Positions 20,570-62,430 of a DNA stretch of 64,000 bases are shown piece after piece. Every line of letters starts with the position of its first letter. The first letter of the stretch is position 1. The notes beneath the pieces are model-generated. The model was given only the letters and a program-made list of their open reading frames with translations, did not search any database and was not told the DNA's origin. Source of the stretch: Nephrocerus scutellatus (taxonomy: Eukaryota > Arthropoda > Insecta > Diptera > Pipunculidae); assembly GCA_947095585.1 (NCBI GenBank), contig OX352763.1, positions 63,831,016 through 63,895,015 of the forward strand. The letters run 5' to 3'. The position numbers and the translations under genes are program-made.

Positions 20570-20573
20570 TCCT

Positions 20574-22171
20574 TGTAACGAGGTTTTTCCCAGCCGGGGT
20601 ATCCTCAGCGTGACCAGGGTTCGTTGATTTAAAAGGGTCGTTACAATAAAAGATTTATTTTGTTAGGAACTCTGAATTCGATGTTTTATTTTCCTTTCGC
20701 TTTTAAAAAAGATGAAAATTGATTTTGGAAAAATAATTAATTTGACTTAGGTCTTAGATGTGTCCTGTGTGTCCTGCGGTTTTGATGCCTTGGTCCAGCG
20801 GGATCGAAGTAAATCGTCTGCGTTTCGTCCAAGTGCTGACCAGCGAAAAGAGGATGCTACGCTCAATTCGTTGCCAAAGAGTTGATACGTCTCCGTGAGT
20901 TGACCAGCGAAAAGAGGATGCTACGCTCAATTCGTTGCCAAAGAGTTGATACGTTTCCGTGAGTTGACCAGCGAAAAGAGGATGCTACGCTCAATTCGTT
21001 GCCAAAGAGTTGATACGTTTCCGTGAGTTGACCAGCGAAAAGAGGATGCTACGCTCAATTCGTTGCCAAAGAGTTGTTGCGTTTTTGTGGGTTGACCAGC
21101 GAAAAGAGGATGCTACGCTCAATTCGTTGCCAAAGAGTCTGTGTCTAGGTAGCTTGATCAGTGAAAGAAGGATGCTACGCTTAATTCACTATCAGGAGTC
21201 GGTCAGATGTCTAAGTATTTTTGATCAGTGAAAGAGGATGCTACGCTCTGTTCACTATCAAGAGTCGGTCAGATGACGAAGAGACTAAGAGTAAGAGAGT
21301 GTATGCTGGGCTTGTGTCCCATTTTATATCATCTGAACCGGTTTAAAACGTCGAACCGGGCTGTTCCGTTTCCATGAATACGTACGGTAAATTACCGTTG
21401 TTGCTATGCCAATTGGTTTTAATTTCCTCGGAACTGCAGTGCGTATGCGTTATTCGTTGTTGTTGTTCGTGTATGTACGCTGCAAAATGTTGACGGAATC
21501 CCCTGTGTATTTTGTTGTTGCATTTTTGCCAATTGAGTTGTCTACTGTCGTTGTTCAGAAAAATGTTGACAAAATTGCCTATATATTTTGTTGTTGTATT
21601 TTCTCCTTCTAATTTTGTCTATTGTCGACGTCATCGTTGCTTGCAAAAAGCGTTGGCGGAGTTTCCTGTACGTTTTGTTGTTGTAGGGAATTCCGTTGTG
21701 ATGATTCTTTTGTGCATAGAATTGTGGTGTCGTTGTGTGTGTTGCATTTGGTCTGCGCTTCTTGGTCGTTGACCTCAGTGTCGTGTTTTTGCTCATTCGC
21801 TTGTGCTGTCGATATTGTGTATGCGTTTGTTATTTGTGGGTTTTTCTGCCTACTCTCCTGTGCTCCTGGCTGTACACCGAATTTGGTATGCAGTATGTGC
21901 TGTCTCTCTCTCCCTCCTCTATTGCTCTATTATGGTGGCTGCAGTGGAGGTGCGGCTACTCGATACTCAATGTATTGATTTCGATCGGTGTCCCAAAAAT
22001 GGAGGTGTGGCCTACTGATCGCATTTATGCATTGAAGAAGTGCAGTCGATCTGAGCAGAGATGCCGTCGGTGTTTTCAGTTTTTGAATATTGATAGAAAT
22101 AATAATGTGTAGATATATATATTTATATAGAAATGTGTGGGGTGAATTTGTTGCCAAATTGACTCCTTACA
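20574..22171 (-). repeat. 3' LTR of the young gypsy
   Basis: 1598 bp, plus-strand ends TGTAACGAGG and TCCTTACA. It matches 26581-28178 except about five substitutions, for example at the AAAAGGGTCG/AAAGGGGTCG block and GGTGGCTGC/GGTGGTTGC. The several plus-strand ORFs inside it occur identically in both LTRs and have no domain. Confidence 0.92.
20836..21276 (-). repeat. Tandem hairpin modules in the LTR (left copy)
   Basis: Five units of about 64 bp each contain CAGCGAA, a 19-base loop with AGGATGCTACGCT, then TTCGTTG. Two further diverged units have ATCAGTGAA and TTCACTATC arms around the same AGGATGCTACGCT loop. Arms change together, so pairing is kept. Between modules a short ACG-loop-CGT stem recurs (complement of ACGTTTCCGT and ACGTCTCCGT). 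The same array is at 26843-27283 in the other LTR. Confidence 0.8.
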
Positions 22172-22179
22172 CTTCCCGG

Positions 22180-24564
22180 TCACGTCGGACGAAGCGGAAT
22201 CTTCCGGTCTTGGTTACGAGGTCCGTTAACAAAATGGTGCCTGGTCTGTGTTTTTCTATGGATTTGAGCATGTTTCTGGACTGTTGTCGGTGAATTCCTG
22301 TGCGGATGCTGTTCCCTATGATAGGCACCTTTGCTTGTGTCGATTTGGGGGTTTTGGTGGAACTGTTTCAGTTCTCCCACGTAGGCGGTACGTTCCTTGG
22401 TCTGACCGCATAGCCTTAGTTTAGCAATGACCGGCGACACGAAATCTACTACTTGATATGGTCCGTCGTACTTTGGCGCGAGCTTGCTGGCAAATCCTTC
22501 AAGTGCGTTGGACAGATGATGCTGTTTGACCAGGACAAGTTGCCCGACCTCCGGTTTCCAGTGGCGTCGTCGAAGATTATAGTGTCGCGCCTGTTCTCCT
22601 GCTGCTCGTTCCATATTGCGTCGAACTATTACGAACACTTCCGACAATTGTTTCGCTCTGTCATCTGGTGTTTTGGGCAGTGTGCCGGTTCCAGTGGTGA
22701 CTTCGTCGAAAAGCGTGTGTGGGAGGCGTGGTTCTCGACCTTGCGTCAGGAAGATTGGGCTGTAACCCGTCGAGTCTTGTTGGCTTGAATTGATTGCCAA
22801 CATGATTTCCGGTAGTTTCTCGTCCCACGTGCGCTGTTGGGTACCGGACAGTTGTGCGATTATCGTTTTGACGGTGCGGTTTGCCCTTTCGGTCGGGTTT
22901 TCTTGCGGGGTGTATGGGGCGGTGTACTGATGTCGTACTCCCATGCTCTGGAGAAACCGTCGAAATGCCCTACTTGTGAACTGGGCGCCGTTGTCGGTGA
23001 TGAGGACTTTGGGTACCCCATATCGTGCCAGTATGCGTTCGCGAAACGCTTTTTGTAGTCCGTCGGTGGTTGCCCGTCTCATCGGCACTAGTTCGACCCA
23101 TATAGAAAAACGGTCGAAGAATACCAATAACATGGTGTTCCCATGTTTCGATCGTGGTAGTGGCCCTACGAAGTCGGCACATAGCATGGCCCATGGTTCT
23201 TCTGCTACCTGCGTGAGCATTTTCCCTGCTGCCTGCTGCTGATTCGGCTTGTAGCGTTGACAGTTCTCGCAACGTTTGACATGCTTGTGGATATCGCCGA
23301 ACATCCCTGGCCAGTAATAACGGGCACATATCCGCGCAGTTGTCTTCCGGATGCCTAGATGTCCTGCCGATGGGTTATCGTGATTCTCCCTGAGAACTTG
23401 GTCACGGAGTGCGATCGGGACACACAGTTTCCAAGGCGTTGTGTCTTCGTCTCCAGCTCGCTGTTCTATGTGGCGATATAACTGCCCAGCTTCTATCACG
23501 TAGTCGGGATACTTTTTGGGGTCTTCTTTGATCTGGTTTACCTTTCTCTCCAGCCATTTACACTTGGAACTTAGTGTGTTGTCGTCGGAACTTGCCATCA
23601 GTAAGTCGTGTGGTTGTCGTGACAATGCATCTGCTACGACGTTCAATTTTCCACGTCTGTATTGAACGTCGAAGGTATATTGTTGTAGTTCGAGCGCCCA
23701 ACGTGCGATTCGTCCGGAGGGGCTTGCAATGGAATTTAACCATTTAAGAGAAAGGTGGTCAGTGATTACCGTGAAGCGGTACCCTTCTAGGTATAACCGC
23801 ATTTTCCTGATTCCCCAGACTATCGCTAGGCACTCCTTCTCGGTGGGGGAATAGTTCTTCTCGGCTTGGTTGAGATGTCGGCTGGCGTATGCTATTACGC
23901 GTTCGTTGCCGTCTAGCTCCTGCGTCAGCACTGCTCCTAGCCCATAGTCGCTGGCGTCTGTCTGCAGTGAAAACTTTTGTGAGAAGTCCGGACATGCGAG
24001 GATTGGGGCTTCAGTTAATCTGGTTTTTAACTTATCGAACGCTGTTTGTTGTTCCTCTGTCCACTTCCAGTGTTTTCCTTTCTTCAATAGGGCGGTCAGT
24101 GGTCGCGTGGTCTCCGAGAAGTCAGGGACGAAACGACGATACCAAGACGCAATCCCCAAGTATCGTCGTACCTCTCGTACGTTGCGTGGTGGTTGCAGTT
24201 CCCTGATAGCTGCGACCTTTTCTGGATCGGTATGAATTCCTTCTCTTTTGACTACGTGTCCCAGGTACTTCAGTTCCGTCTTGCAGAACTCGCATTTTTC
24301 TGGGTTGATCTTTAGGTTCGCCGCTTGTAGTCGTCTGAACACCTTGCGTAGATTTGACAAATGTTCCTCGAAAGTCCTTCCGATGATGATGATGTCATCG
24401 AGGTATGCAAATGCGTGTGGCTCCATCTCTGGCCCGATAACCCGGTCGAGTGCCCGCTGAAAAGTGGCCGGTGCGGAATGCAACCCGAAGGGCATCACTC
24501 GCCACTGAAATAGGCCACGCTCTGGTACTGTGAAGGCAGTATATTTCTTGCTGTTTGCTTCCAT
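22180..24564 (-). pseudogene. Young gypsy pol: RT palm to integrase (after the stop)
   Basis: 794 open codons to the stop near the LTR. It is in the same frame as 25542-24613 and separated from it only by the TAA at 24610-24612. Order: RT (FQWRVMPFGLHSAPATFQRA, FAYLDDIII with the YLDD active site), connection (LGIASWYRRFVPDFS), RNase H ([42 protein letters not shown]), integrase zinc finger (RENHDNPSAGHLG, CENCQRYK) and core (LCADFVGPLP, ITDNGAQFTS, PQENPTERAN). The C-terminal GPY-type domain is FASKLAPKYDGPYQVVDFVS. Apart from the one stop, every catalytic residue I can check is present. Confidence 0.85.
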
Positions 24565-24609
24565 GGGTATTTGCCAGTACCCGTTCCGTAAGTCCAGGCT
24601 GCTTATAAA

Positions 24610-25542
24610 TTAAGCGCCTCGTAGTCGTTCCAGAATGTGCTGGATTCGGGGCAATGGGTATGCGTCGGGTGTTGACCGTGCATTGAGTTCACGATAGTCT
24701 ACGCAAAGCCTCCATTTTCCCGTCTTCTTCTTGACGAGCACGATAGGTGCGCTGTGAGGGCTGCGCGAGGGTTCGATACAGCCTTTTGCTAGCAGTTCGT
24801 TGATCTCCGAGTTGATGATTTCCTGCATTGCCGGGTTTCGGGGGAAATATCGCTGCTTGATTGGTCGCTCATCACGCATCAGGATCTTATGTTCTGTGAT
24901 GTTAGACACCGCTGGTAACTTGTCAAACTTTTGGAATTCCTCTTGGAGAAAAACTGCGAGTCTCTCGTGATCCGTTTTTAGTTCCGGTTGGACTCTTATA
25001 CCGCGCAGAGTTTCAGACTGCTGTTCCGCCTTTTCGTGAAGCTGTAGTGTTTGGCCGCCACAACTCACTTTGGCTTTCACTTTTAAAAGAAAGTCTAGTC
25101 CGAGGACGATACTGTCCACAGCTTCCGGGAGTACCAAAAAGTTTAGTCGGGTGTGTTCTCTTCCAATTCGTACGTCAAAGGTTAGGGCTTCTCGGATAAC
25201 TCGGGGTGTGCCCTCAGCCATCCTGACCGTCATGTTGACGGGTACGCTATTTGACGCGTTCCTTCTGTCTTCCGCATACTGCTCGCTAATGAAACTCTTT
25301 GTCGCACCCGTGTCGATCGTAGCGGTGACAATTTCGTTCCCTAGGCTGATGGTGGCGTAGACTCGAGTTGCGTCGAAGTGTAGACAGTCTACTGGGTTTG
25401 AGGTGTCATCGTCTGGGGTCCCGCCACACCTCTGTTCTGGCGGTCCCCGCGGTCGTTTCCCGCTTGTCTCCGACAACATTCTGTCGTCCTTATGTCTCGG
25501 CGGCCGCATTCCCAGCAGAAGAGAATTTGTTGATTCTGACAA
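24610..25542 (-). pseudogene. Young gypsy pol: protease and RT fingers, ended by a premature stop
   Basis: 310 codons from the first Met to TAA at 24610-24612. The protease has ATIDTGATKSFISEQY with DTGA and the C-terminal ILP...IVLGLDFLL. RT begins with IEPSRSPHSAPIVLVKKKTG and WRLCVDYRELNARS. The stop replaces a Gln that relatives keep in RGAQFI, a CAA-to-TAA type change. Without it pol would be one frame down to 22180. Pol overlaps gag and lies in the -1 frame relative to it, so expression probably uses a -1 frameshift. I could not identify the slippery site with confidence. Confidence 0.85.
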
Positions 25543-26516
25543 TCTCGTCTTCTATGCCCGTCCTGGCCGCATCGCATGCAGGCTGTCCTTACGTTTATGC
25601 GTCTCTCGCCGTCGCGTGCTATCATACCGTTTCTCTCCATCGGTTTCGGTCGGTGGGTGGGTCTGTTTGGTCCTGCCATTCCAGCTATACTCTCAAAATC
25701 TTCTGCTAGTTCGATGAGGTCGTTCAGTGAATTGAAATCTTTTCGCTTAATGTAGTATTGATATTCCTGGCGACAATTTCTGAATATCCTTTCTACCTGC
25801 TGTACCGCTGTGTAGTCGGCGTGCCTCATCAAGTTTTGCATTGCTATGACGAAATCTTTAAAACTTTCATTCCCTGTCTGGCGTCGTTGGCGGATTTCGT
25901 CGTCCAAATGTTCCCAATACCTTGTGGGCAAAAAGAATTTGAGGAAGTCTCCCTTAAACGCTCTCCAGCTCTGCCATCTCTGGTTGTTACTCCGGAACCA
26001 CATCAATCCACGGTCGCGAAGCAGTTCGGGCATAGTTCTCGGGAGCAGATCCTTGTCTAAAGAGTATGCGTCGGCCAGCTCCTCAAGTCTTTCGACAAAT
26101 GACAATGGGTCTTTGCCTCCGTCGTAACGAACTGACCATTTTCTGACTTGGTCGATCACCATCGCGTATGATATACCAGGTGGTACCGTTGTTCCTCGGT
26201 TCGATGCTCGGTCCGTGACCGCTGAAGTGTGCGTTGATGGTGGGATTGTTAACCCCGGTGTTTTGACTTTCTCGCCTTCTATCGTGTCATATAGATTTAA
26301 TTGTGGTGTGGGCGTTGGTGAAGGGTTGCGGTGGTGTCTTGCCTCCAGTTCCGCCAGGCGAAGTTCGTCGTCTGAGGTCACATCTCGTCCCGTGATGAAC
26401 GTCGTGAAACGCTTCCTCAACTCATCTACTCCGCCGTTAACGTCCAGCCTAAATTCTGCCAAATAACTTTGTAGGTTGTCCTTCGTAAGATTATAGACCC
26501 AACTAGTCTTTACCAT
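25389..26516 (-). CDS. Young gypsy gag, intact
   Basis: 375 codons with start ATG at 26516 just downstream of the primer site. Residues about 5-40 (YNLTKDNLQSYLAEF, GGVDELRKRFTTF) resemble a SAP DNA-binding motif. The capsid core runs from VIDQVRKWSVRYDGGKDPLS through LPRTMPELLRDRGLMWFR, FFLPTRYWEHLDDEIRQRR and MQNLMRHADYT to YYIKRKDFNSLNDLIELAED. Two zinc motifs follow: CMRCGQDGHRRRDC and the half-like CWECGRRDIRTTECC. Gag assembles the particle and binds genomic RNA. It is the best-preserved protein in the window. Confidence 0.9.
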   Translation of the reverse strand: MVKTSWVYNLTKDNLQSYLAEFRLDVNGGVDELRKRFTTFITGRDVTSDDELRLAELEARHHRNPSPTPTPQLNLYDTIEGEKVKTPGLTIPPSTHTSAVTDRASNRGTTVPPGISYAMVIDQVRKWSVRYDGGKDPLSFVERLEELADAYSLDKDLLPRTMPELLRDRGLMWFRSNNQRWQSWRAFKGDFLKFFLPTRYWEHLDDEIRQRRQTGNESFKDFVIAMQNLMRHADYTAVQQVERIFRNCRQEYQYYIKRKDFNSLNDLIELAEDFESIAGMAGPNRPTHRPKPMERNGMIARDGERRINVRTACMRCGQDGHRRRDCQNQQILFCWECGRRDIRTTECCRRQAGNDRGDRQNRGVAGPQTMTPQTQ

Positions 26517-26560
26517 CTTGGCTAATTTGGTTTTCTTCGTTTGTTATTTGTTTTTCCAGA

Positions 26561-26578
26561 GTCCCTGCTCGGGCGCCA
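26561..26578 (-). other. Primer-binding site (tRNA-Lys type)
   Basis: The plus strand reads GTCCCTGCTCGGGCGCCA, the complement of TGGCGCCCGAGCAGGGAC, two bases inside the 5' LTR. It matches the 3' end of tRNA-Lys(UUU)-like primers with about one difference. Confidence 0.85.
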
Positions 26579-26580
26579 AT

Positions 26581-28178
26581 TGTAACGAGGTTTTTCCCAG
26601 CCGGGGTATCCTCAGCGTGACCAGGGTTCGTTGATTTAAAGGGGTCGTTACAATAAAAGATTTATTTTGTTAGGAACTCTGAATTCGATGTTTTATTTTC
26701 CTCTCGCTTTTAAAAAAGATGAAAATTGATTTTGGAAAAATAATTAATTTGACTTAGGTCTTAGATGTGTCCTGTGTGTCCTGCGGTTTTGATGCCTTGG
26801 TCCAGCGGGATCGAAGTAAATCGTCTGCGTTTCGTCCAAGTGCTGACCAGCGAAAAGAGGATGCTACGCTCAATTCGTTGCCAAAGAGTTGATACGTCTC
26901 CGTGAGTTGACCAGCGAAAAGAGGATGCTACGCTCAATTCGTTGCCAAAGAGTTGATACGTTTCCGTGAGTTGACCAGCGAAAAGAGGATGCTACGCTCA
27001 ATTCGTTGCCAAAGAGTTGATACGTTTCCGTGAGTTGACCAGCGAAAAGAGGATGCTACGCTCAATTCGTTGCCAAAGAGTTGTTGCGTTTTCGTGGGTT
27101 GACCAGCGAAAAGAGGATGCTACGCTCAATTCGTTGCCAAAGAGTCTGTGTCTAGGTAGCTTGATCAGTGAAAGAAGGATGCTACGCTTAATTCACTATC
27201 AGGAGTCGGTCAGATGTCTAAGTATTTTTGATCAGTGAAAGAGGATGCTACGCTCTGTTCACTATCAAGAGTCGGTCAGATGACGAAGAGACTAAGAGTA
27301 AGAGAGTGTATGCTGGGCTTGTGTCCCCTTTTATATCATCTGAACCGGTTTAAAACGTCGAACCGGGCTGTTCCGTTTCCATGAATACGTACGGTAAATT
27401 ACCGTTGTTGCTATGCCAATTGGTTTTAATTTCCTCGGAACTGCAGTGCGTATGCGTTATTCGTTGTTGTTGTTCGTGTATGTACGCTGCAAAATGTTGA
27501 CGGAATCCCCTGTGTATTTTGTTGTTGCATTTTTGCCAATTGAGTTGTCTACTGTCGTTGTTCAGAAAAATGTTGACAAAATTGCCTATATATTTTGTTG
27601 TTGTATTTTCTCCTTCTAATTTTGTCTATTGTCGACGTCATCGTTGCTTGCAAAAAGCGTTGGCGGAGTTTCCTGTACGTTTTGTTGTTGTAGGGAATTC
27701 CGTTGTGATGATTCTTTTGTGCATAGAATTGTGGTGTCGTTGTGTGTGTTGCATTTGGTCTGCGCTTCTTGGTCGTTGACCTCAGTGTCGTGTTTTTGCT
27801 CATTCGCTTGTGCTGTCGATATTGTGTATGCGTTTGTTATTTGTGGGTTTTTCTGCCTACTCTCCTGTGCTCCTGGCTGTACACCGAATTTGGTATGCAG
27901 TATGTGCTGTCTCTCTCTCCCTCCTCTATTGCTCTATTATGGTGGTTGCAGTGGAGGTGCGGCTACTCGATACTCAATGTATTGATTTCGATCGGTGTCC
28001 CAAAAATGGAGGTGTGGCCTACTGATCGCATTTATGCATTGAAGAAGTGCAGTCGATCTGAGCAGAGATGCCGTCGGTGTTTTCAGTTTTTGAATATTGA
28101 TAGAAATAATAATGTGTAGATATATATATTTATATAGAAATGTGTGGGGTGAATTTGTTGCCAAATTGACTCCTTACA
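26581..28178 (-). repeat. 5' LTR of the young gypsy
   Basis: 1598 bp, matching 20574-22171 with about five differences. It contains the second copy of the hairpin array (26843-27283). In element sense it starts TGTAAGGAG and ends CTCGTTACA. Confidence 0.92.
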
Positions 28179-44123: not shown

Positions 44124-44125
44124 TT

Positions 44126-45036
44126 TGTAACGTTGTTGCTCGGGTGACGCTCGCCGATCACCCAGGGTTCTTTCTCCTCAATGTTACAAAATAAACAGAT
44201 TTTTTTAGATTTCTTTTGATTTTCGTTTTATTATTTCGGTTTAAATTACTATTATTACAGGCTAATATAGTGTGTACGACTAATGTAATGATTATAAGTT
44301 AACATACGGACTAATGATGTGTACAAACTACGGTTCTGGTTATAAGCCAATATAATACTAATATAATATAATATATGGTAACAATATGCTAATATACAGA
44401 CTTATACAATGAAAATAGGGTAATGTAATTGCGGGACGGTGTAGCTCCTTGACCGGTGTGTGTGCAACACAACACCGTCGGTGGGTCAGCAGAACAGAGT
44501 GTACTCAAGTACAGCGTTGCTGTGAGTGGAAAAGCATACGTGATGCTATCCTTCAAATAATGGGAGTGTAGTTCAATAGGCAGTGCGTGACCGTCACAGC
44601 ATTGTTACTGTTGAACTAAGTGCATTTACAGAAGAAAAGTAGACAAAAAATACTTTTATTCTTCTGTAGGGTGTAGTTCAATAACCAGCGCGTGAGCAGA
44701 CACAACGTTGGTACTGAGTACACAAAAAATGATTTTTAGAAGAAAAAGTAAGAAATTCTTTTTTTCTCCTGGAGATGCACTTTTATACATGCGGGGTGTA
44801 GCTCAGTAAACAGCGCGTGAACAGACACAGTGTTGTTTTATGGAGTACCCTAGATGCATGTGTGCGGGAAAAAGCAATGATTTATTGCTGTAATAGTTCG
44901 GCATGAACATCATGAACGTTTGCCTTATGACGAATTCCTTACGTTTTGTAGAGGTGTCATATGAGGCGCAGAGGAGATATTACCACGTAATGTAGAAGTC
45001 TCTTCCTCCGTTTGTGCTTATTTGAAATGCATGTTT
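44126..45036 (-). repeat. Array LTR 3, left part (interrupted)
   Basis: It starts TGTAACGTTG and continues normally to GAAATGCATGTTT at 45036, where the plus-strand element is inserted. The LTR resumes at 54335-54572 after the target duplication GTTT. Four hairpin modules are complete in this part. Confidence 0.9.
44436..44889 (-). repeat. Four two-hairpin modules in the array LTR
   Basis: Each module has a long hairpin beginning GTGTAG(C/T)TC, then a short A/T-rich hairpin. Long hairpins: 44436-44478 (ACGGTGT/ACACCGT), 44569-44618 (TAGTTCAA/TTGAACTA), 44671-44723 (GTGTA/TACAC, ACCA/TGGT) and 44795-44849 (AAACA/TGTTT). Short ones: 44532-44547 (AAGCAT/ATGCT), 44628-44667 (ACAGAAGAA/TTCTTCTGT) and 44871-44889 (AGCAAT/ATTGCT). 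Sequences differ between modules, but complementarity is kept. Confidence 0.8.
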
Positions 45037-45586
45037 TGTAAGGACGATTTTGGACGCACACAAAATCCCCCATACAACGTAACCAGATCAGCGGTCCAGG
45101 GTTCGCTAAAACTCTTTCTGTTTTGTAAATACTACTGAATTAAATATTGAAATATTGTTAAAACACGAAACATAAATTAAATGAATTTTAATATAAAATG
45201 TATTTGGAATACTTTTTACACATAAAATATTTTACTCACTTTAGAATAAGCACCCTGTAGGCTAAGAACAATTGTAACGGGCTTTGCTTCAATAGCACTG
45301 CACCGACAATTATATAGCAACACTCATGGCAATACACAGTGTGAATTACATATTTACACAAGTTTGTTGCCACCGAGTTACAAAGCGAAATCATACATAA
45401 TTATATGTAATTACTTACAAGAGCTATGTAATACAACAACAACACGGTCATTGGGTTCAGCATGCAGACAACGGTAAACATACATCACACACACGGTATA
45501 CGCATGGCGCACGCACAAACATGGACAATGTACAAACACGGAATATTACTATACGCATGCTGGACCAAATGAACCGTTAGTTCAAG

Positions 45587-45657
45587 TATAAAAGGAGGCT
45601 GCTGATCGATCAACAGCGAGTCGTTCGTGAACCGTCGCAGGGTGCACCACTGGTAAG
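45587..45657 (+). promoter_or_regulatory. LTR promoter and possible 5' splice site
   Basis: TATAAAAGG at 45587-45595 lies about 25-30 bp before a likely start (ATCAACAG near 45612), followed by AGTCGTTCGTG, which resembles a downstream promoter element. At 45650-45658 CTGGTAAGT matches a strong splice donor. The 3' LTR keeps the TATA box, but the donor reads CTGGTACGT (about 53486). No acceptor was identified. Confidence 0.65.
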
Positions 45658-45710
45658 TCTCGTTATTCTTAGTTATTGTTAGTTTATTTCTATTTCTTAG
45701 TTATATGTAG

Positions 45711-46353
45711 CTCACAGCTTCCCCCCACCCGCGGTAAGGGGTTGTGAGACTATTATCATAGTATATATATAGCATATAGCTTCCCCCCACCCGTGGTAAG
45801 GGGTTATATGATATTATCATTATTTAATAGCAAAGGTTGTATACAGTTTGTAACTTCCCCCCACCCGTGGTAAGGGGTTGCAAACTATTATCATTTCGCT
45901 CATAGGGGGCAGAGATTTTATCTCTCCAATTGTAATTTGGCTTATCTACGTACTACCGATATTATAAAGTTTACGGCTTCCCACCACCCGTGGTAAGGGG
46001 TCGTAAGCTATTGTCATTTCGCTTATAGGGGGCAGAGATTTTATCTCTCCATTTCTGGTTTGGTCAGCTACGTTTACTAGGTGGTATACGGATTGCAATT
46101 CCACATTTAGCTATTCTGCTCATAGGGGGCAGAAATTTTATCTCTCCAGTTCTGATTTGGATAGATATTTTACTTACAAGAACATTAGTCTAGACATAGC
46201 TCACAGCTTCCCCCCACCCGCGGTAAGGGGTTGTGAGACTATTATCATAGTATATATATAGCATATAGCTTCCACCCGTGGTAAGGGGTTATATGCTATT
46301 ATCGTTATTTATTTGCAAACTATTGTCAGAGGTGGCAGAGATTTTATCTCTCC
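45711..46353 (+). repeat. Alternating hairpin array in LTR leader
   Basis: Two hairpin types. Type A (45711-45748, 45773-45810, 45845-45886, 45968-46009, 46200-46237, 46262-46295) has an invariant core CTTCCCC...GGTAAGGGG with changing outer arms: CTCACAG/TTGTGAG, CATATAG/TTATATG, AGTTTGTAA/TTGCAAACT, AGTTTACGG/TCGTAAGCT. Type B (45905-45927, 46027-46050, 46121-46147, 46330-46353) reads GGGGGCAGAGATTTTATCTC. It lies downstream of the start site, so it is in the RNA leader. The 3' LTR has a shorter array at about 53533-53972. Confidence 0.88.
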
Positions 46354-46431
46354 ATGTCTAACTTGGTTAGCTATACTTAGTGATACGACCCACACACCAA
46401 CGAATGCACCTTACGATGTCGGGACGTCGAC

Positions 46432-46700
46432 TCCACAAGTAAAACAGTAAACTAAAACATTGTAAAACCACAAGTAAAACAGTAAACTAAAACATTGTAA
46501 AACCACAAGTAAAACAGTAAACTAAAACATTGTAAAACCACAAGTAAAACAGTAAACTAAAACATTGTAGAACCACAAGTAAAACAGTAAACTAAAACAT
46601 TGTAAAACCACAAGTAAAACAGTAAACTAAAACATTGTAAAACCACAAGTAAAATAGTGAGCTAAAACATTGTAAAACCATAAGTTAAATAAAATTCCAA
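46432..46700 (+). repeat. 35-bp tandem repeat, seven units (5' LTR)
   Basis: Units of CCACAAGTAAAACAGTAAAC plus TAAAACATTGTAAAA. Seven units here and five in the 3' LTR (54053-54235). The last unit in both LTRs is diverged in the same way (AGTAAAATAGTGAGC), so copy number changed inside the array. Confidence 0.9.
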
Positions 46701-46788
46701 AAGAAAACCAAGACAAAGTTTTAAATTTTTTCTGTAACGAACCCCTGGAAATCGCTGAGCATACCCCAGCCATAAAACTTCGTTACAG

Positions 46789-46806
46789 TGGCGCCCGAGC
46801 AGGGAC
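46789..46806 (+). other. Primer-binding site (tRNA-Lys type)
   Basis: TGGCGCCCGAGCAGGGAC, one base after the LTR end. Same site as in the 20.6-kb family and the array family. Confidence 0.88.
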
Positions 46807-47028
46807 TTCTACGCAGAAAAAAAACATCAATCATCATTAAGCTACAACACCCCCCACAGAAGACTACGAGAACACAACAAAAGACGCCGGCCATAAAAGA
46901 TTTTCAAATTGTTGTTGTGAAATCACTACTTCGCCACGAAAGACCACGTTAAATTTCACTCCAACGCTTCGGCCGTCACATCACCGCAGAAGACAAGAAT
47001 CACCGCACCGGAAACAATAACCCCCCGT

Positions 47029-48125
47029 ATGAAGACAGCGTGGATATATTCACTACGCAAAGAAGATCTGGTCACATACGCTAAGGAATTTGGGCTAGAG
47101 GACACCGGCACCGTCGAAGAACTTCGTAAGCGTTTTTCCTCGTTTGTGAATGGAGGCGAACTTAAATCAGAAGTTCAGGACCGACTCCGCACTCTGGAAA
47201 GCCAACACACGAGGGCACTCCTCACCTCACCTGTACATCCTCCACAAGTAGTTGTCTCTCATACAGATGACGCTTACGAAAAGATGACCGGCATCATCAA
47301 CAACACAGACCAACACACATCGGTTCCAGCCCAACCCATCGTACCCGGCTGTCATCGATCACGTTCGGAAGTGGTCGGTGAAATTCGACGGTGTGCGCGA
47401 ACCCGCTTGCTTTCATTGAACGCGTCGAAGAGCTCTCCGACGTCTATGGGTTGAACAAAAACATGCTTCCGCGAACGATGCCAGAACTCCTTAAGGACAG
47501 AGCACTGATATGGTACCGAAACAACAACGGTCAATGGACAGAGTGGCATGCTTTCAAACAGGACTTCCTGAGGTTCTTCCTGCCAGCTCGATTCTTCGAA
47601 GGATTAGAAGATGACATCCGCCAACGTAAGCAACAGCCGAGGGAAAAATTTAAAGATTACATCATCACCATTCAGAATCTAATGCGCCACGCCCGATACA
47701 CCGAAGACCAGAAGCTGGAACGCATCTTTCGAAATAGTCGCCAGGACTATCAGCTTTATATAAAACGGAAAGATTTTGTATGTCTCGAGGAGTTAGTAAA
47801 ATTATCCGAAGACTTCGAATGCCTTAACTGCGGCACCAGAAATGTCGACGCACCATCACGATCACCAAGACGGGACGAGCAACACCGACAAGTCATCCCA
47901 GTGCCAGAAGGACCCATTGACCCGCGATCAGCCTGTCGACGTTGCGGCCAGCAAGGGCATTTTTCCCGCGAATGTCGGAACCCCAGGGTGCTGTTTTGCT
48001 GGGAGTGTGGCAAACGGAATGCCAGAACGATCGACTGCTGTCGTCGACCGACGGGAAACTCCATCGGGTTCCATCAAAGCCAGGGGAGGATGGAACCCCA
48101 GAACCCCACGCCCCGACACAACTAG
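47029..48125 (+). pseudogene. Gag of the Ulp1-bearing gypsy, two frameshifts
   Basis: Start ATG at 47029. Residues 1-40 (YSLRKEDLVTYAKEFGLEDT, GTVEELRKRFSSF) are SAP-like. The first frame is lost near 47340. A short middle frame carries VIDHVRKWSVKFDG (47351 on), and the third frame (47391-48125) holds the capsid core (LPRTMPELLKDRALIWYRNN, FFLPARFFEGLEDDIRQRKQ, YQLYIKRKDFVCLEELVKL) and zinc motifs CRRCGQQGHFSREC and CWECGKRNARTIDCC. Two +1-type shifts about 50 bp apart are needed to read it. The sibling element at 25389-26516 shows the intact form. Confidence 0.85.
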
Positions 48126-49597
48126 GACCACTGCAACAAGAACACAACCGCATAGCCGCTACGATAACCATGGGTGGAGAAGAAACCACCGCTACAATCG
48201 ACACAGGAGCTACAAGACGTCTCATCAGCGAAGCCTATGCACGCGCAATACGACATACAGGACAGACAGTGAGAACGGCGGTATCAGTACGGATGGCAAA
48301 CGGCACGAAAAGACTGGTACAATATGCCTTCGAGACCACGATACAATTTGGACACAGCTGTTGCAAGATGCAACTACTCATTCTCCCGGAGGCCATCGAC
48401 AGAATAATCTTGGGACTGGATTTCCTCAGTCGGGCAAAGACAACGATGAGCATAGGCGGATATAACCTCACCCTCAACTACGACAGAACGATTACGCAGC
48501 CAATAGGACCCCAGGTTCGTGCCATCCAAAGCAAGATCCCCAGTGACGACGACAGGATAAAGTCCTTTCTGGACCAGGAGCTTAGAAAATTTGAGTCGAT
48601 GAGCGGCGTGTCCAATATCACTAGCCCTAAAATCGTGATGCAAGACGATCGACCACTAAAGCAACGGAACTTCCCGAAGAACCCGGCCATGCAAAACATT
48701 ATCAACGAGGAAATCAATGACTTATTAGAAAAGGGATGCATTGAACCATCCAAAAGCCCCTTCAGTGCCCCAGTCGTCTTCGTAAGGAAAACGACTGGGA
48801 AATGGAGACTCTGTGTGGACTACAGGCAGCTGAACTCCAAGTCTGTCCCTGACGCATACCCGCTTCCGAGGATCCACCACATTTTAGATCGTCTCAGGAA
48901 CGCGAAGTATATCAGTAGCCTAGACCTCAAGAATGGGTACTGGCAAATTCCGATGGAGGAAGACAGCAAAAAGTATACAGCGTTCACCGTGCCAGGGCGT
49001 GGGCTTTTCCAATGGCGAGTCATGCCTTTCGGGCTCCACTCCGCTCCCGCCACATTCCAGCGAGCACTAGACCAGGTCATTGGTCCAGATATGGAACCTC
49101 ACGCTTTCGCCTATTTGGATGACATCGTCGTGACCGGAGAGTCTTTGGAGGACCACATGACACACCTGAGAGAAGTACTACGACGGCTGCATCAGACGAA
49201 CCTAAAAATCAACGCAGACAAGTGTGAATTCTTCAAGAAGGAAATAAAGTACCTGGGACACATGGTCAGTGAACAAGGAATTCACACTGACCCAGAGAAA
49301 ATTGCGGCCATTCGAGAACTCCGACCACCGACTACACTTCGAGAACTCCGTCGCTGCCTAGGGATCGCTTCGTGGTACAGGAGATTTGTTCCCGAATTTG
49401 CAAAGGTCCTCCAACCCCTAACTAGCCTCCTAAAGAAGGGGAAACATTGGAAGTGGATCGACACGCAGCAAGACGCATTTGACCAGTTAAAGGAACGGCT
49501 TACGCAAGCACCGGTTCTCGCCTGTCCGGATTTTGAAAGAAAATTTATCCTGCAGACAGATGCCAGCGACTACGGACTCGGGGTCGTACTCACGTAA
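47942..49597 (+). pseudogene. Pol part 1: protease and RT, ended by one stop
   Basis: 551 codons in the -1 frame relative to gag, overlapping its end. Protease site: TATIDTGATRRLISEAYA; C-terminal IDRIILGLDFLS. RT: IEPSKSPFSAPVVFVRKTTG, LCVDYRQLNSKS, SSLDLKNGYWQIPM, FQWRVMPFGLHSAPATFQRA, FAYLDDIVVTG (YLDD). The connection LGIASWYRRFVPEFA and first RNase H motif LQTDASDYGLGVVLT follow. TAA at 49595-49597 stands where relatives have Gln, a C-to-T type change. The frame is open again beyond it. Confidence 0.88.
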
Positions 49598-50150
49598 GAA
49601 ATCGACGGCCAAGAGAGGGTTATCGCCTACGCCAGTCGCCACTTGAACTCAGCGGAACGCAACTATTCGCCCACAGAAAAGGAATGCCTAGCCATAGTTT
49701 GGGGTGTTCGCAAGATGCGACACTACCTGAAAGGATATAAATTCACGATCATCACGGACCATCTGGCGTTGAAATGGCTCAACTCAATCGAGAGTCCGTC
49801 GGGAAGAATCGCTCGTTGGCCCTTGGAATTACAACAATTTACATACGACATCCAGTATCGACGAGGAAGGTTGAACGTGGTCGCTGACGCACTTTCACGT
49901 CAACCCCGAGAAGTCCTGCGAACGGCAACTGCAGAAAACATCGACATAGACAAAGGCTTGAACGAAGGAAATCGGAAGTCAAAGGAAGTCCGCAGAAATT
50001 TCCGGACTATGTCATCGAGGGCAACGATTTCTATCGCCACATCTCCCATCAGACCGCAAACGAGGACTGTACTCTTGGAAGCTATGCGTCCCAAAATACC
50101 AGCGAACACGAGTCCTGAGGGAGAATCATGACGAACCCACCGCCGGACAC
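49598..50150 (+). pseudogene. Pol part 2: RNase H end and integrase zinc finger, frameshifted
   Basis: It continues in the same frame after the stop: [57 protein letters not shown]. The frame changes near 49990 ([20 protein letters not shown]) and again near 50072, after which [20 protein letters not shown] and TAGHLGIRKT give the integrase His pair. Two small indels are therefore present in about 90 bp. Confidence 0.8.
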
Positions 50151-51506
50151 TTGGGGATTCGCAAGACAATCACCCGTATTACCAATAGATATTACTGGCC
50201 AGGAATGTTCCGGGACATCAGCCGGTATGTTCGGCGCTGCGAATCCTTCCAGAAGTTCAAGTCGATCCAACAGAAGCCAGCCGGAGCCATGCTGTCTCAA
50301 ATCGCAGACGGACCCTGGAATATCGTGTGCGCGGATTTCGTCGGGCCACTCCCCCGATCTAAACACGGCAACACAGTTATGCCCGTCCTCTTCGATAAGT
50401 TCTCGAAGTGGACAGAGATCGTCCCACTAAGAAAAGCCACATCGGAATCTCTGAAGAAGGCCTTTCGTGAGCGAACCTTGGCCCGTTACGGAGTTCCGAA
50501 GATCTTCGTCAGCGACAACGGAGCCCAATTCTCCAGTAACCAGTTCCGGAAGTTCCTACAAGAGCTGGGGGTCAAACACCAATTCACCGCCCCATACACG
50601 CCCCAGGAGAACCCCACAGAACGAGCAAACCGCACAGTCAAGACAATGGTCACCCAGTTTGTAGGCGAACAACACAGGGGGTGGGACGAACTCCTCCCCG
50701 AGATCTCATTAGCCATAAACTCCAGTGTAGCGGAATCGACAGGCTTCAGTCCAGCCTTCCTCACCCAGGGTCGAGAGCCTCGCATACCACGGACACTTTT
50801 CGACGATAGAACCAGCGGGACGGGAGACACCGAACAGTCACCCAGAGAGAAGGCTGAACACCTACAAGAAGTCTTCCAACTTGTGCGCCGGAACCTGGAA
50901 CAAGCAGCTCAGAATCAGGCGAGGTACTACAATCTTCGAAGACGGCCCTGGAAAACCACGATCGGACAGTTGGTCCTGGTGAAACAGCACCATCTGTCCA
51001 AGGCGATAGACAGTTTTGCAGCAAAACTCCTCCCAAGGTATGACGGACCTTATGAGGTCATCAGCTTCTTGTCTCCAGTAATTGTGCGACTCCGAATAAA
51101 AAATAACAAGAAGACTCGCACAGCCCATATCAGCGACCTAAAGGAGTTCAAAACAGAAGACACTCTGGTCCCATCAGATTTATCACAGCCGGAGGATCCA
51201 GGTAACACACCCGAAGAAACACCAACTATGCAGTGGACACTCCATTTCCATGGGTCCAAGAACACGAGACACCGAAGGAAACAGCAGGCGCTCAGGGAGA
51301 CACGCCAAGAATCAAACTCCCATACCGGGAGGAAGGACAACATTCCCCGGTACAGCAACACGGCAGCGGTGAGGGTCAGCGACACCGCATCGAGGAAGTA
51401 CAGCGACCACGGCAGGACTAAGGTACAGGGACAGGGAAGCAGGGGCGAACCATACCGTAGCAGTGAACGAGACAACAAGAGCAAGAGAGATAGCAGACAA
51501 CAGTAG
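50151..51506 (+). pseudogene. Pol part 3: integrase core and C-terminal domain
   Basis: 451 open codons. The zinc finger second Cys is Phe (CESFQKFK instead of CxxC), a likely disabling change. Catalytic residues: Asp62 (VCADFVGPLP), Asp122 (VSDNGAQFSS), Glu157 (PQENPTERANR). C-terminal GPY-like domain: LVLVKQHHLSKAIDSFAAKL, RYDGPYEVISFLSPVIVRL. The last 110 residues are polar and Arg-rich (TRHRRKQQALRE, SSERDNKSKRDSRQQ) without a domain. The stop at 51504-51506 precedes the internal promoter by about 120 bp. Confidence 0.88.
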
Positions 51507-51624
51507 GGGCGGGCAGACGGCTCCAAATGCGAAAAGGAGCACGATAACGGCAGCACTCGACCACCACAAAATAAATAGAATGTAAATTCTATGTATTTAT
51601 TCTACAAATGTCCCGTTAGTCCAC

Positions 51625-51670
51625 TATAAATAGGCAGACGGAGATCAAAGAACTCATCAGTCATCAGTAT
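51625..51670 (+). promoter_or_regulatory. Internal core promoter upstream of the Ulp1-like gene
   Basis: TATAAATAG at 51625-51633, then TCATCAGTCATCAGT at about 51654-51668 holding two Inr-like sites (TCAGTC at 51657-51662 is a good match to the insect initiator). TATA-to-start distance is about 31-34 bp. The first ATG downstream (51724) starts the Ulp1-like ORF. This suggests a separate transcript for the accessory gene. Confidence 0.65.
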
Positions 51671-51723
51671 ACGATCGCGAAAGCAAGTGAATTTAAAATA
51701 AAATAAAAATAAAAACAATAATA

Positions 51724-52554
51724 ATGGAAAAATTAGAAGCGGTTAAGCAAAAGGCCAGAGAGGTAGCCGAGCGAAACTACCAGCGGCGCTCGCTAATGCA
51801 GCCATTAGACGACCAGTGGGAGGAAACCTGCGACCCCCGGACCAGGAGGATGAAGGTGAAACGCCGGCAGCCGGACCCGAGGGAGCTAGAGGACGCCGAG
51901 GTACGCCGATCCGCCGCCACGGCCATCGAGGCAGTCGGACTATCCCCGACCATCACCCTGTCCAGCGACGAGGAGGAGACCTCCCCTCCAGAGCACTTCT
52001 GCATCTATCCTCCAGGACCAGGCGGGATCACCCTCACAAAAGAGGACTACGGCCGACTGGCTGTCGGTGAGCTGCTCAACGACCGGCTGATCGAGGCGCA
52101 GCTACGATGGATTCATCAGAGGGCCACGACCGATCAAGAGCGCCAGAGTACACATATCTTCAACACTTTTCTTTTGGAACGACTCACTCAGATCAAAGAG
52201 GTGGTCGACATGCCGCCGTAGCACGTTGGACCAAAGAAGCGGAAGCGGCAGTCAAAAACCACGGACCGGACCCTCCACGGCGATTTTCCACCCTCCCACA
52301 TAAGCTGGTACGAATCCCCAAACAGCGCAACAACAAAGACTGTGGCCTTTTCTTGCTTCACTGTACCGGAGATTTTGTTACCAGTCCGGGAAGACCGCCA
52401 ACATTCCCCGGGACTGGGCAACCTGCCCGAAGGCGAGATGGAAGTCCGGGAAGACCGTCAACATTCCCCGGGACGAGACAACCTGCTCGAAGGCGAGATG
52501 GAAGTGCGGGAAGACTGCCAAAATTCCCCGGGACGACGGCTAGGCACGATTAGT
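51724..52554 (+). pseudogene. Ulp1/SENP6-7-like cysteine protease gene captured by a retrotransposon
   Basis: Proteases of this family (C48) cut SUMO or related modifiers from proteins. The ORF from ATG 51724 (165 codons) has a charged N-terminus, then YPPGPGGITLTKEDYGRLAV, GELLNDRLIEAQLRWI and HIFNTFLLERLT, the opening helix and strand of the Ulp1 fold. A SENP6/7-type origin is suggested by YPP-GGI and GE-LND. A shift near 52200 moves to the frame of 52107-52553, which has ARWTKE and then VRIPKQRNNKDCGLFLLHC. Its Cys codon at 52341-52343 fits the nucleophile. The part between, where the catalytic His and Asp belong, is missing. This copy cannot be an active protease. Confidence 0.8.
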
Positions 52555-52854
52555 GATGGCAAAGGGGGCCTGGAACACCACATCATAGACGAGGAAAACG
52601 GCAAGGCCAACAGCAGCAGAACAGCAGAAGGACCCTTCTCCGAGGTCTGGGCCATGGGCAACGTAGAGCCCCATGCGCCATACGTCGGACGAGAATACTC
52701 CCAAAACTGGCCTCGAGAGGTCACCAAGGGTATTTCCAGGGCCAATAACATACGGCAGCGAAACCAGCAGATGAGGTTAATAATCGAGACCGGCGGGAGA
52801 AAATATAAGGTGAAAACCAGGCGGTCGGGAGAGGCCAACGTAACCATGTCTTAA
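52342..52854 (+). pseudogene. C-terminal ORF after the Ulp1-like domain
   Basis: 170 codons in the frame of the 51724 ORF, overlapping the Cys region. It starts inside the protease homology, so the Met is doubtful. It contains 20-residue repeats (VREDRQHSPG..NL.EGEME), then an acidic and polar stretch and a basic end (IRQRNQQMRLIIETGGRKYK, KTRRSGEANVTMS). No family recognised. It may be the natural C-terminus of the Ulp1-like protein before the frameshift, or a separate protein. Confidence 0.5.
52384..52540 (+). repeat. 60-bp tandem repeat in the Ulp1-like gene
   Basis: About 2.6 units starting GTCCGGGAAGACCG and containing ACATTCCCCGGGAC. Unit length is a multiple of three, so reading frames are kept through it. 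Confidence 0.85.
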
Positions 52855-52855
52855 C

Positions 52856-52875
52856 GGAAGTAAAGGGGGTGGGGG
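52856..52875 (+). other. Polypurine tract
   Basis: GGAAGTAAAGGGGGTGGGGG ends just before the 3' LTR start TGTAAGGACG at 52876. Confidence 0.85.
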
Positions 52876-54334
52876 TGTAAGGACGATTTTTGACGCACAC
52901 AAAATCCCCCATACAACGTAACCAGCGGTCCAGGGTTCGCTAAAACTCTTTCTGTTTTGTAAATACTACTGAATTAAATATTGAAATATTGTTAAAACAC
53001 GAAACATAAATTAAATGAATTTTAATATAAAATGTATTTGGAATACTTTTTACACATAAAATATTTTACTCACTTTACAATAAGCACCCTGTAGGCTAAG
53101 AACAATTGTAACGGGCTTTGCTTCAATAGCACTGCACCGACAATTATATAGCAACACTCATGGCAATACATAGTGTGAATTACATATTTACACAAGTGTG
53201 TTGCCACCGAGTTACAAAGCGAAATCATACATAATTATATGTAATGACTTACAAGAGCTATGTAATACAACAACAACACGGTCATTGGGTTCAGCATGCG
53301 GACAACGGTAAACATACATCACACACACGGTATACGCATAGCGCACGCACAAACAGGGACAATGTACAAACACGGAAGATTACTATACGCATGCTGGACC
53401 AAATGAACCGTTAGTTCAAGTATAAAAGGAGGCTGCTGATCGATCAACAGCGAGTCGTTCGTGAACCGTCGCAGGGTGCACCACTGGTACGTCTCGTTAT
53501 TCTTAGTTTATTTCTATTTCTTAGGTATATATAGCTCACAGCTTCCCCCCACCCGCGGTAAGAGGTTGTGAGACTATTATCATAGTATATATATAGCATA
53601 TAGCTTCCCCCACCCGTGGTAAGGGGTTATATGCTATTATCATTTCGCTCATAGGGGGCAGAGATTTTATCTCTCCATTTCTGGTTTGGTCAGCTACGTT
53701 TACTAGGTGGTATACGGATTGCAATTCCACATTTAGCTATTCCGCTCATAGGGGGCAGAAATTTTATCTCTCCAGTTCTGATTTGGATAGATATTTTACT
53801 TACAAGAACATTAGTCTAGACATAGCTCACAGCTTCCCCCCACCCGCGGTAAGGGGTTGTGAGACTATTATCATAGTATATATATAGCATATAGCTTCCA
53901 CCCGTGGTAAGGGGTTATATGCTATTATCGTTATTTATTTGCAAACTATTGTCAGAGATTTTATCTCTCCATGTCTAACTTGGTTAGCTATACTTAGTGA
54001 TACAACCCACACACCAACGAATGCACCTTACGATGTCGGGACGTCGACTCCACAAGTAAAACAGTAAACTAAAACATTGTAAAACCACAAGTAAAACAGT
54101 AAACTAAAACATTGTAAAACCACAAGTAAAACAGTAAACTAAAACATTGTATAACTACAAGTAAAACAGTAAACTAAAACATTGTAAAACCGCAAGTAAA
54201 ATAGTGAGCTAAAACATTGTAAAACCATAAGTTAAATAAAATTCCAAAAGAAAACCAAGACAAAGTTTTAATTTTTTTCTGTAACGAACCCCTGGAAATC
54301 GCTGAGCATACCCCAGCTATAAAACTTCGTTACA
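52876..54334 (+). repeat. 3' LTR of the Ulp1-bearing gypsy
   Basis: 1459 bp with the same ends as the 5' LTR. It has fewer hairpin modules (about 53533-53972) and five 35-bp units. A few substitutions are visible outside the repeats, including a 5-bp deletion near 52922. Confidence 0.92.
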
Positions 54335-54572
54335 GTTTTACATGCCCTGGTGTATTGAGTGGTTGGGAATTATTTTCCCGCCACTACCATACTGCACTTT
54401 GTAATTGATTTTCTGATTTGTTTTTATTTTTAGAGGTTGGGTGTGTACATGTAATTGCGTTTGTGGTATATTTTGTATTAGCGATAGGGTGTGTACATGT
54501 AATTGCGTTTGTGGTATATTTTGTATTAGAGATAGGGTGTGTAACGAAGGTGAGTAATCAAACTTCGTTGCA
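54335..54572 (-). repeat. Array LTR 3, right part
   Basis: Continuation of the LTR begun at 44126, after the duplicated GTTT. It ends CTTCGTTGCA at 54572 and is followed by the polypurine tract complement of copy C. Confidence 0.9.
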
Positions 54573-55005
54573 TTCTCCTCCTACTTCGGTGTGCGGAAAG
54601 AGATATATTATATAATTCGGTGGTGTATATCTTATACTTCTAAATTGTATGTAATTATTGTTATATATAGCGCTCGGTCGGGTGGTCACTATCTTTTTTT
54701 TTTCTTTTTTTGGGATTACCTTTATTTTTGTGCCAATTGCCGGCCCGAGTAACAAGGTTTGTTTTCTTGTTTTCGGGTTTTTTTTTCTTTTTTATATTAA
54801 ACGCATTTGTTTTCGGAACAATATATTTTGTAATTATAAAAAAAAATTCATAATAATAATAACAAAAAAAAATTTCTGACAGTGTCAAAATATATACTTT
54901 ATGAAATATATAAAAACAAAAAAAATTCAATTTAATAAGTAATGACTAAAAATAGTGATAGTAACAAAAGTAAATAAAAATTCATAATAATAATAAAAAA
55001 TTCGG

Positions 55006-56510
55006 TTATTCCGGGAGCTGGATGCTGATGGTGTTGTTCCCCGTTGTTTTGAGGCAAATCTTGTTGTCTGCTCCTTTTGAACCATAGATGTGCCCATATG
55101 GGCCGGTGAATCGGAACCTTTTCTTCCGGAGTGGGACCGTGATGCCTTTGAATGCCTCTGGGTCATACGGTTTGCTTTGGCTGATGGTGGTGAACTCGGC
55201 TAGTGGTAGGAATTTTGTTTCTTGGGTGTCTGGGACTAGAGGTTGTTCTTCGGTGTAGGTTTCTTCTGGTTGTTTGTTGCTGGTGCCTGGTTGTTCTTGT
55301 CGGACTATTGGGGAGTTATTGATTAATTTATTTGGTAGTATGGGTTGGGGTGTGGCTAGGACGGTGGGTTGGTTTTTTGGGGTTGCTGGGTATTTTTCTG
55401 GGGCTTGGGAGGGATCTGGTTGGGTTGGTGTTGGCTTTGGTACCGGGAGGAAAGGGACAGGAGCAGCTGCGGTTCCGGCCAGTCTTGGCACTAGCCTAGT
55501 CAAGTTTACCAACTCGTTGCTGGTGAGTGGCCGCTTGGGAGGCGGTGGCTGCTTCTTCCAGGCGCGATTTCGGTTGTGGTGCTGGACGGTCTTCTTCGGC
55601 GGTGGTGCTAGCACGGGACGTGGCTGGGTACGTCGGTGGGTCCCAGGTGCTAAGCCGGCATCGGTGAATTCGGTGAGGCGTTGTTGTCGGTCTGCCATCT
55701 CGATTGGTACTGGACTGGATGTAATCGTGGGACAATTGAGTATACCTGACGTTTGATCGATTTCGTTCGGTGGCTGGTCAGGTATTTGTTTACAGTCTTT
55801 TATATGGGTTGTAATAGTTTTTTTCTGGTCTCCTTCTAGGATGAATATTACTGGTGACACCCTTTTCCGTATACGGTAGGGGCCTATATATGTTGGTGCT
55901 AGCTTAGCAGCGAATTGTTGTGCGGCTGAAGAGAGTGGACGGTAGCGGTAATAAACCATCTCTCCTATGGATGGGCTCCATGGTCGACGGCGTAGATCGA
56001 TGCAAGTTGGACATTGTCGGACAAATCGTGCCGTGTCACGAAATAAGCCGGGCCAATAGTAATTCTTTGCTATCCTGGCTATGGTTTTTGCAATCCCCAT
56101 ATGCCCTGCGGTCACGTTCGTGTGGTTTTCGAGCCGTATGATTCTGTATGAGCCGTTATGATATTTTCGCCCTGAATAATATTAAAACTGAATTTCGATA
56201 GGAAGTCCGTTCCGATCAGAAATTCGCCATTAGTTTCAGGAGGTATATAAATTCTTGTAAAAAGGTTCGATCTTTCCAACTTAATTCCAATGTGTATGCT
56301 TCACGAGCGGTGACGGTTCGGTTATCGGCCAAAGCGAAGGTGATTTCAATAGGTCGGGCTGGTATGTGATTTTTCATACAGAGTTTTTGTATAGTTTTGC
56401 CTATACAGGATTTCCCTGCTCCGGTATCGATGATTGCGTTGTATTTCTGGTGAAATAGCTTTATGGGTAGGGTGTGTGAGGCCAGGTTTTCAGTGGTGGT
56501 ACTCGGGGCG
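55006..56510 (-). pseudogene. Copy C pol remnant
   Basis: 369 open codons (56115-55006). Integrase zinc finger with both Cys (CPTC), then the deletion junction into LRRRPWSPSIGEMVYYRYRP. After that come AAKLAPTYIGPYRIRKRVSP, TEFTDAGLAPGTHRRTQP, the KKPPPP block and the complete tail ending GHIYG...SIQLPE. Upstream, the protease with IIDTGAGKS (about 56430) is in another frame. RT, RNase H and the integrase core are missing. Confidence 0.85.
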
Positions 56511-56511
56511 T

Positions 56512-62426: not shown

Positions 62427-62430
62427 ATTT

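Follow-up and report, generated by a model that had tools for sequence, protein, structure and literature searches.

The window, a 64-kb stretch of the Nephrocerus scutellatus genome, contains a Ty3/gypsy LTR retrotransposon whose parts are located in Table 1. The assignment follows from LTRs flanked by a short target-site duplication (GTTT) and from the order of the domains found by Pfam in the window frames, gag first, then aspartic protease (PR), reverse transcriptase (RT), RNase H (RH) and integrase (INT). The two LTRs are approximately 96% identical over their longest aligned blocks. The primer binding site TGGCGCCCGAGCAGGGAC, which we take to be tRNA-Lys-like, reads TGGCGCCC in the window element. 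The N-terminal part of gag is SAP-like, just under the curated Pfam cut-off, and the first pol frame terminates in a stop at 49595-49597. The regions on both sides of the element (34634-45037 and 54335-64000) are rich in repeated blocks, 94-99% identical; gypsy-like pieces of gag and of integrase occur there on the minus strand, and several copies of another element apparently surround the one studied here.

As the first-pass annotation had claimed, an open reading frame with Ulp1-type blocks, here called ORF3, stands between the end of pol (51506) and the polypurine tract, and a TATA box and an initiator-like block precede it. Errantiviruses have env as third ORF; the window ORF3 pieces matched C48 (Ulp1-type) proteases or nothing at E-values up to 1. 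No env family match was obtained at E up to 0.1 in the ORF3 of ten relatives, eight of which matched C48 only; the extra Pfam matches of L049 and L048, below the cut-off, were not to env either.

Table 1. Features of the C48-bearing retrotransposon and of the related element E2, in window positions
Feature	Position	Strand	Remarks
E2, related element with gag and pol	20573..28178	-	target-site duplication AGGA
Target-site duplication GTTT	left 45033..45036, right 54335-54338	.	flanks the Ty3/gypsy element
Ty3/gypsy LTR retrotransposon, whole copy	45037-54334	+	between the GTTT duplications
5′ LTR	45037..46787	+	starts TGTAAGG, ends CGTTACA
Primer binding site TGGCGCCCGAGCAGGGAC	46789..46806	+	
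gag, two frames	46921..48125	+	46921-47454 and 47382-48125; Retrotrans_gag, CCHC knuckle (Pfam)
pol: aspartic protease, reverse transcriptase, RNase H start	47921..49597	+	Pfam
Remaining RNase H, open frame	49598..50131	+	by position and translation, without Pfam scan
Integrase frame	49962..51506	+	H2C2, rve, SH3-like (Pfam)
TATA box TATAAATAG, putative internal promoter	51625..51633	+	
Initiator-like block TCATCAGTC	51654..51662	+	candidate starts A51656 or A51659
ORF3, N part	51724..52221	+	starts at ATG 51724; C48 N-terminal block about 51988-52191
C48 nucleophile block (NNKDCGLFLLHC)	52305..52364	+	in a different frame (52071-52553)
ORF3 C-terminal tail module	52636..52851	+	conserved; frame of the start ATG
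Polypurine tract	52858..52875	+	
3′ LTR	52876..54334	+	start adjoins the polypurine tract

In the window copy, ORF3 begins at the first ATG 3′ of the predicted start site. Its initial 165 residues include the N-terminal block of the C48 domain and run into a stop (52219-52221), so that the two halves of the domain sit in different frames. Besides GELLND and HIFNTF, the sequence contains YPPGPGGITLTKEDYGRLAV and NNKDCGLFLLHC. The halves matched Pfam Peptidase_C48 with E 0.0051 and 0.1, both under the curated cut-off, and ORF3 matched SENP7 with E 1e-6 (phmmer); a profile made from the C48 cores of nine relatives recognised them at 2e-25 and 2.1e-15. In the catalytic columns the Cys is kept, the His is replaced by T and the Asp by H, and the His/Asp stretch is not recognisable, in agreement with the annotation of this copy as frameshifted and devoid of that region. 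Because of the stop, the frame change and the loss of the His/Asp stretch, the window ORF3 is, by its sequence, dead and would not yield an active enzyme.

Relatives of this ORF are numerous. The window ORF3 part, used as query against the source genome (613 Mb in 9 contigs), found at least 152 matches with E up to 0.001 and 31-100% identity (best 150 of 505 candidates scored); among the matches listed, many are in open frames of 400-570 aa. Peptidase_C48 itself was also used as query (best 150 of 487 candidates scored). Some relatives have an open ORF3 of 457-563 aa with a nearly full Peptidase_C48 domain. All ten relatives' proteins scanned passed the Pfam C48 cut-off, one of them, L048, coming from a tandem array, not from an LTR element; nine covered most of the domain, only the Cys part being matched in L039, and the best, L050, reached E 8e-34. 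The profile thus matches fully in relatives, the window copy by itself falling below the cut-off, and a chance resemblance to C48 is ruled out by the genome search and the profiles.

Twenty 10-kb stretches around ORF3 matches were examined, a length that stops inside most 3′ LTRs. A same-strand integrase match lay upstream of ORF3 in 19 of them, the exception being L048. Thirteen (L033, L034, L036, L037, L039, L040, L041, L043, L044, L045, L047, L049 and L050) showed gag, pol and ORF3 together with a direct repeat beginning 3′ of ORF3 and having its partner 5′ of gag; in L032 and L046, integrase and ORF3 were found in rearranged surroundings. Identity over the longest LTR-repeat segment ranged from 88.7% (L036) to 99.4% (L033), 99.7% (L040 and L050) and 100% over 775 bp (L047), and some insertions therefore look recent. 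In L047, pol and C48 share a single frame, 1774 aa long.

The association was then counted from the integrase side. Among 84 window-related integrase matches (86 minus two partial rows), 56 had a listed C48 match 49-827 bp downstream on the same strand, the C48 rows being all 150 listed for Peptidase_C48 and 73 of the 152 ORF3 matches; 28 had none among the matches listed. The remaining ORF3 rows, inspected by eye, placed no match less than 3 kb downstream of these 28, and one of them (C1:73851108) has a C48 approximately 3.2 kb downstream. A large family with 475-aa C48 frames, known here by its coordinates, accounts for 27 of the best 150 rows, 24 of them with no stop in the match (hand count). 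In seven of these 27 rows, a listed integrase match is found 612-746 bp ahead of the C48, and the family belongs to the same element lineage. These genome copies, the linkage to integrase and the Pfam matches of the relatives establish what had been proposed from one decayed copy, that a C48 gene resides inside a Ty3/gypsy element. Many other copies having been found behind integrase, a single host insertion in one copy is ruled out.

Some arrangements depart from dispersed elements. At C3:57797663-57825109, four ORF3 copies, each behind an integrase match, are spaced by 8.9-9.3 kb, as of whole elements in tandem. L048 (C2:56.345-56.464 Mb) consists of head-to-tail in-frame C48 units with no gag-pol there; the usual spacing is 1.55-1.56 kb, and a single gap measures 2.55 kb. 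Differences among five of its units are about equal over the three codon positions, so that a piece of ORF3 seems to have been amplified neutrally, in the manner of a satellite. The nuclear contigs C1-C4 hold full-length copies of mitochondrial-type COX1, a dense array of COX1 fragments occupies C4:57.05-57.43 Mb, and contig C9 looks like the mitochondrial contig.

The window also holds the complete-looking E2, whose LTRs (1599 bp) are 99.7% identical and which groups with L047 and L049 in both the RT and the INT tree. Neither C48 nor the ORF3 tail was found ahead of its 3′ LTR. E2 is young, so at least one recent insertion either could dispense with C48 or received it in trans from other copies.

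Among host proteases, the element C48 is closest to the SENP6/7 group, the affinity first suggested for the window copy. L050 ORF3 matched SENP7 (3eay) with E 2.4e-40, yeast Ulp2 with 6.2e-20 and SENP1 with 6.2e-17; similarity and trees both place the domain nearer to SENP6/7/Ulp2 than to SENP1/2/3/5. It shares with these enzymes the P..GGI start and the LND, HW, DS and QxNxxDCG blocks. It differs from host SENP6/7 in being short and in lying inside an LTR element with an N part and tail of its own; in L050, His and Asp are not separated by a large insertion. One tree combined 12 element rows (L048 included) with 11 others; the element rows formed one group (support 82/85, 81% of bootstraps) adjoining Timema and Drosophila SENP6/7-type proteins. 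In a second tree, P0031 (a metagenomic protein described below), a Candida row and an unnamed row were added and five near-copies left out; there the group without P0031 had support 43/18.8, the group with P0031 was present in 20% of bootstraps, and a single clade including P0031 was not rejected (p-AU 0.358). An origin of the element C48 from the SENP6/7 type is thus well supported by sequence comparison, and capture from a host gene, as initially proposed, is likely. A single capture is not supported once P0031 is added.

The full triad of His, Asp and Cys is present in 25 of the 40 distinct stretches of ORF3 compared, the window copy being one of the 15 others. Nine of the 25 had supplied the queries, which leaves 16 of the remaining 31. 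Kept residues do not amount to an open frame: in L029 and L030, the catalytic residues are kept across a frame change. Selection was estimated between subfamilies. For L041-L043, C48 dN was 0.07 and dS 0.27 (ratio 0.25), and integrase dN/dS in L041-L042, which represent the same two groups, was 0.14. L041 and L043 show 33 amino-acid differences where the neutral mean is 47.8, and L041 and L044 show 31 where it is 47.5; none of 1000 simulations was as low in either case. C48 is under purifying selection between these two subfamilies. The close pairs L043-L044 and L045-L046 gave C48 dN/dS of 0.78 and 0.90, on few changes. C48 also diverges faster than integrase (dN 0.216 versus 0.058 for L047-L049, C48 dS being saturated), a pattern compatible with an accessory role or a role in conflict.

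The first-pass annotation had given ORF3 a promoter of its own. The 64-kb window contains a single occurrence of TATAAATAG-N(18-24)-TCA[GA]T, a pattern present in none of 5000 shuffles for each of six spacers; because the pattern was derived from these copies, only conservation between copies counts as independent evidence. TATAAATAG stands 5′ of ORF3 in 14 of 18 copies, with an initiator at near-fixed spacing, and is absent from the approximately 360 bp upstream of ORF3 in L036, L046, L049 and L050; the count leaves out the fused L047, in which no TATA[AT] was present in the stretch examined, as well as L032 and L048. By script, the distance between the candidate start A and the first TATA-box T is 31 or 33 nt; by eye, with the second TCA, it is 34 nt. 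In six subfamily representatives, 6 of 10 columns were invariant in the initiator block, 4 of 18 between it and the TATA box, and 3 of 121 in the flanks; the representatives were picked for having the TATA box, whose nine columns are invariant by that choice. Integrase dS exceeds 1 between the window element, L033/L034 and L041, so that for these the conservation of TATA box and initiator is not inertia.

In 11 of the 14 copies, no other ATG comes between the predicted start and that of ORF3, and the leaders are 12-98 nt long; the ORF3 ATG is lost in L039, and short frames come first in L037 and L038. In L050, on the ORF3 strand at about 7105-7138, a possible initiator TCATTC is followed by GGACGTG at +28, a DPE-like layout seen by eye, in the branch without TATAAATAG. 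The comparison supports a putative internal Pol II promoter ahead of ORF3 in one subclade. The proposal of a private promoter therefore stands for the conserved sequence of that subclade and does not extend to the lineage in general, as L049 and L050 lack this TATA box and the L047 protease is fused to pol.

ORF3 opens with an N part that varies and that includes, in several subfamilies, a basic KRRQP-like stretch; the C48 core follows, then a linker of low complexity or of repeats, and finally the tail module. Some related elements devoid of C48 have a pol end similar to this tail: a tail profile, which included the window copy among its rows, matched weakly (set of 136, E 1e-5 to 5e-4) the C-terminal ends of P0056, P0032, P0030 and P0078 and, in the same weak range, an inner stretch of P0096, and C48 was not reported in any of these five. 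The occurrence of the tail in such elements suggests that C48 may have entered between the integrase and a pol tail that was already there, to be separated from pol later, in the TATA subclade.

The metagenomic P0031 (1483 aa, 6.4-kb contig) has PR, RT, RH, INT and C48 (E 5e-21) in one frame; its end looks tail-like by eye, and was not reported by the tail profile. C48 within the pol frame was found in one of the best 120 of 306 pol relatives by precomputed domains, a survey that would not show a separate ORF3. Within these 120, the top-ranked named relatives come from dipterans (Eurosta and Drosophila, with Calliphora further down), and the lower-ranked ones from beetles, ants, bees and a wasp. 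ORF3 protein searches elsewhere gave few matches: one protein of the spider Oedothorax, and C48 proteins that were fungal or of host type. Beyond the Nephrocerus genome and P0031, the ORF3 protein and pol relative searches revealed no further C48-bearing element, and no relatives were found in phages or viral contigs.

We propose that a Ty3/gypsy lineage took up a SENP6/7-type cysteine protease gene as ORF3, that ORF3 would be transcribed separately into a short mRNA, and that the enzyme may strip SUMO or SUMO chains off nuclear proteins. Its activity on SUMO, as opposed to ubiquitin or NEDD8, is putative. The most plausible targets would be the SUMO-dependent transposon-silencing machinery, whose weakening would favour expression of the element; passages of PMC7272611 propose that Su(var)2-10, a SUMO ligase of Drosophila that interacts with Piwi, recruits SetDB1 in transposon silencing. 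In L047, the pol-joined C48 could travel with the integrase instead. We give this proposal, from capture to plausible action on silencing, about an even chance of being right. A more specific version is tentative and, taken whole, will probably need revision: an insect Ty3/gypsy deSUMOylase, driven in part by a private promoter, would strip SUMO off the piRNA co-transcriptional silencing machinery, would have stood first between integrase and pol tail and been split off later, and its INT-C48 order may be linked to the origin of Ginger1 transposons.

Among the alternatives, an action at integration has the most in its favour. C48 would then remove SUMO from proteins of chromatin or repair, either at the target or on the incoming complex, a role of the type suggested for Ginger and Mutator-type transposons. 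L047 and P0031 both have the protease joined to pol, and Ginger1 transposases offer a precedent in which Ulp1 lies C-terminal to a gypsy-type integrase (PMC2836005, in part). Delivery with integrase is disfavoured, however, by the separate ORF3 with its own promoter-like block in the other subclade, and we judge this role unlikely. An active C48 might also work on ubiquitin or another modifier, or on antiviral immunity, and not on SUMO-dependent silencing. C48 enzymes include deNEDDylases and deubiquitinases, and the rapid divergence between L047 and L049 would suit a conflict of any kind, but the top matches are SENP7 and Ulp2, and we hold this reading to be improbable.

Some DNA viruses use Ulp1-fold proteases for polyprotein maturation, and pol fusion as in L047 and P0031 would carry C48 into particles, where it could cut Gag-Pol, or ORF3 itself. 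Yet the element already has an aspartic protease, ORF3 is separate from pol in the TATA subclade, the closest similarity is to SENP7 and Ulp2, and E2 manages without C48, so that a maturation protease seems a poor prospect. That ORF3 is a functionless passenger, a carried gene fragment, is scarcely credible: the window copy and 14 more of the 40 stretches are without the full triad, E2 has no C48 and the L048 array looks neutral, but the catalytic residues are kept across subfamilies with integrase dS above 1, C48 is under purifying selection, 24 of the best 150 rows have 475-aa frames with no stop in the match, and C48 is present in another organism's element, P0031.

The preferred reading, a captured protease plausibly directed at SUMO-dependent silencing, has partial counterparts in known systems. 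Foamy viruses have an internal promoter inside the provirus that drives the 3′ accessory genes. The likeness lies in a second promoter ahead of a 3′ accessory ORF; foamy viruses differ in being retroviruses with env, and to our knowledge none of their accessory proteins is a C48 protease. Ginger1 transposases, as described in sections of PMC2836005, have a gypsy-type integrase followed, at the C-terminal end, by a Ulp1 (or OTU) domain, for which a role in transposition or repair has been proposed. The likeness is one of domain order, INT-C48 in L047 and P0031 as in Ginger1; however, Ginger1 is described there as a cut-and-paste DNA transposon with terminal inverted repeats, whereas the element studied here has LTRs, gag, PR, RT and RH, and is not a Ginger1 member. 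Mutator-like elements likewise carry Ulp1 genes, but are DNA transposons with another transposase (PMC2836005, same sections).

Extra enzymatic ORFs in LTR elements are already known, judging from parts of PMC5408684 and PMC9289625. Orchid Ty3/gypsy elements, in the portion of PMC9289625 concerned, carry an ORF for an AlkB-type m6A demethylase; they resemble our case in joining to Ty3/gypsy an extra-ORF enzyme that acts on a regulatory mark, and differ in enzyme, host kingdom and mark. Among the papers listed by searches of the open PMC library, none was found to describe a Ty3/gypsy element with Ulp1/C48.

Our observations thus extend the carriage of Ulp1 from DNA transposons to Ty3/gypsy elements, in a promoter layout that recalls foamy viruses. 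Flies silence transposons partly via SUMO, and an element-borne SUMO-type protease would be placed to undo such marks. If true, this would be a direct animal example of transposon counter-defence, and would provide a testable handle on why silencing uses SUMO.
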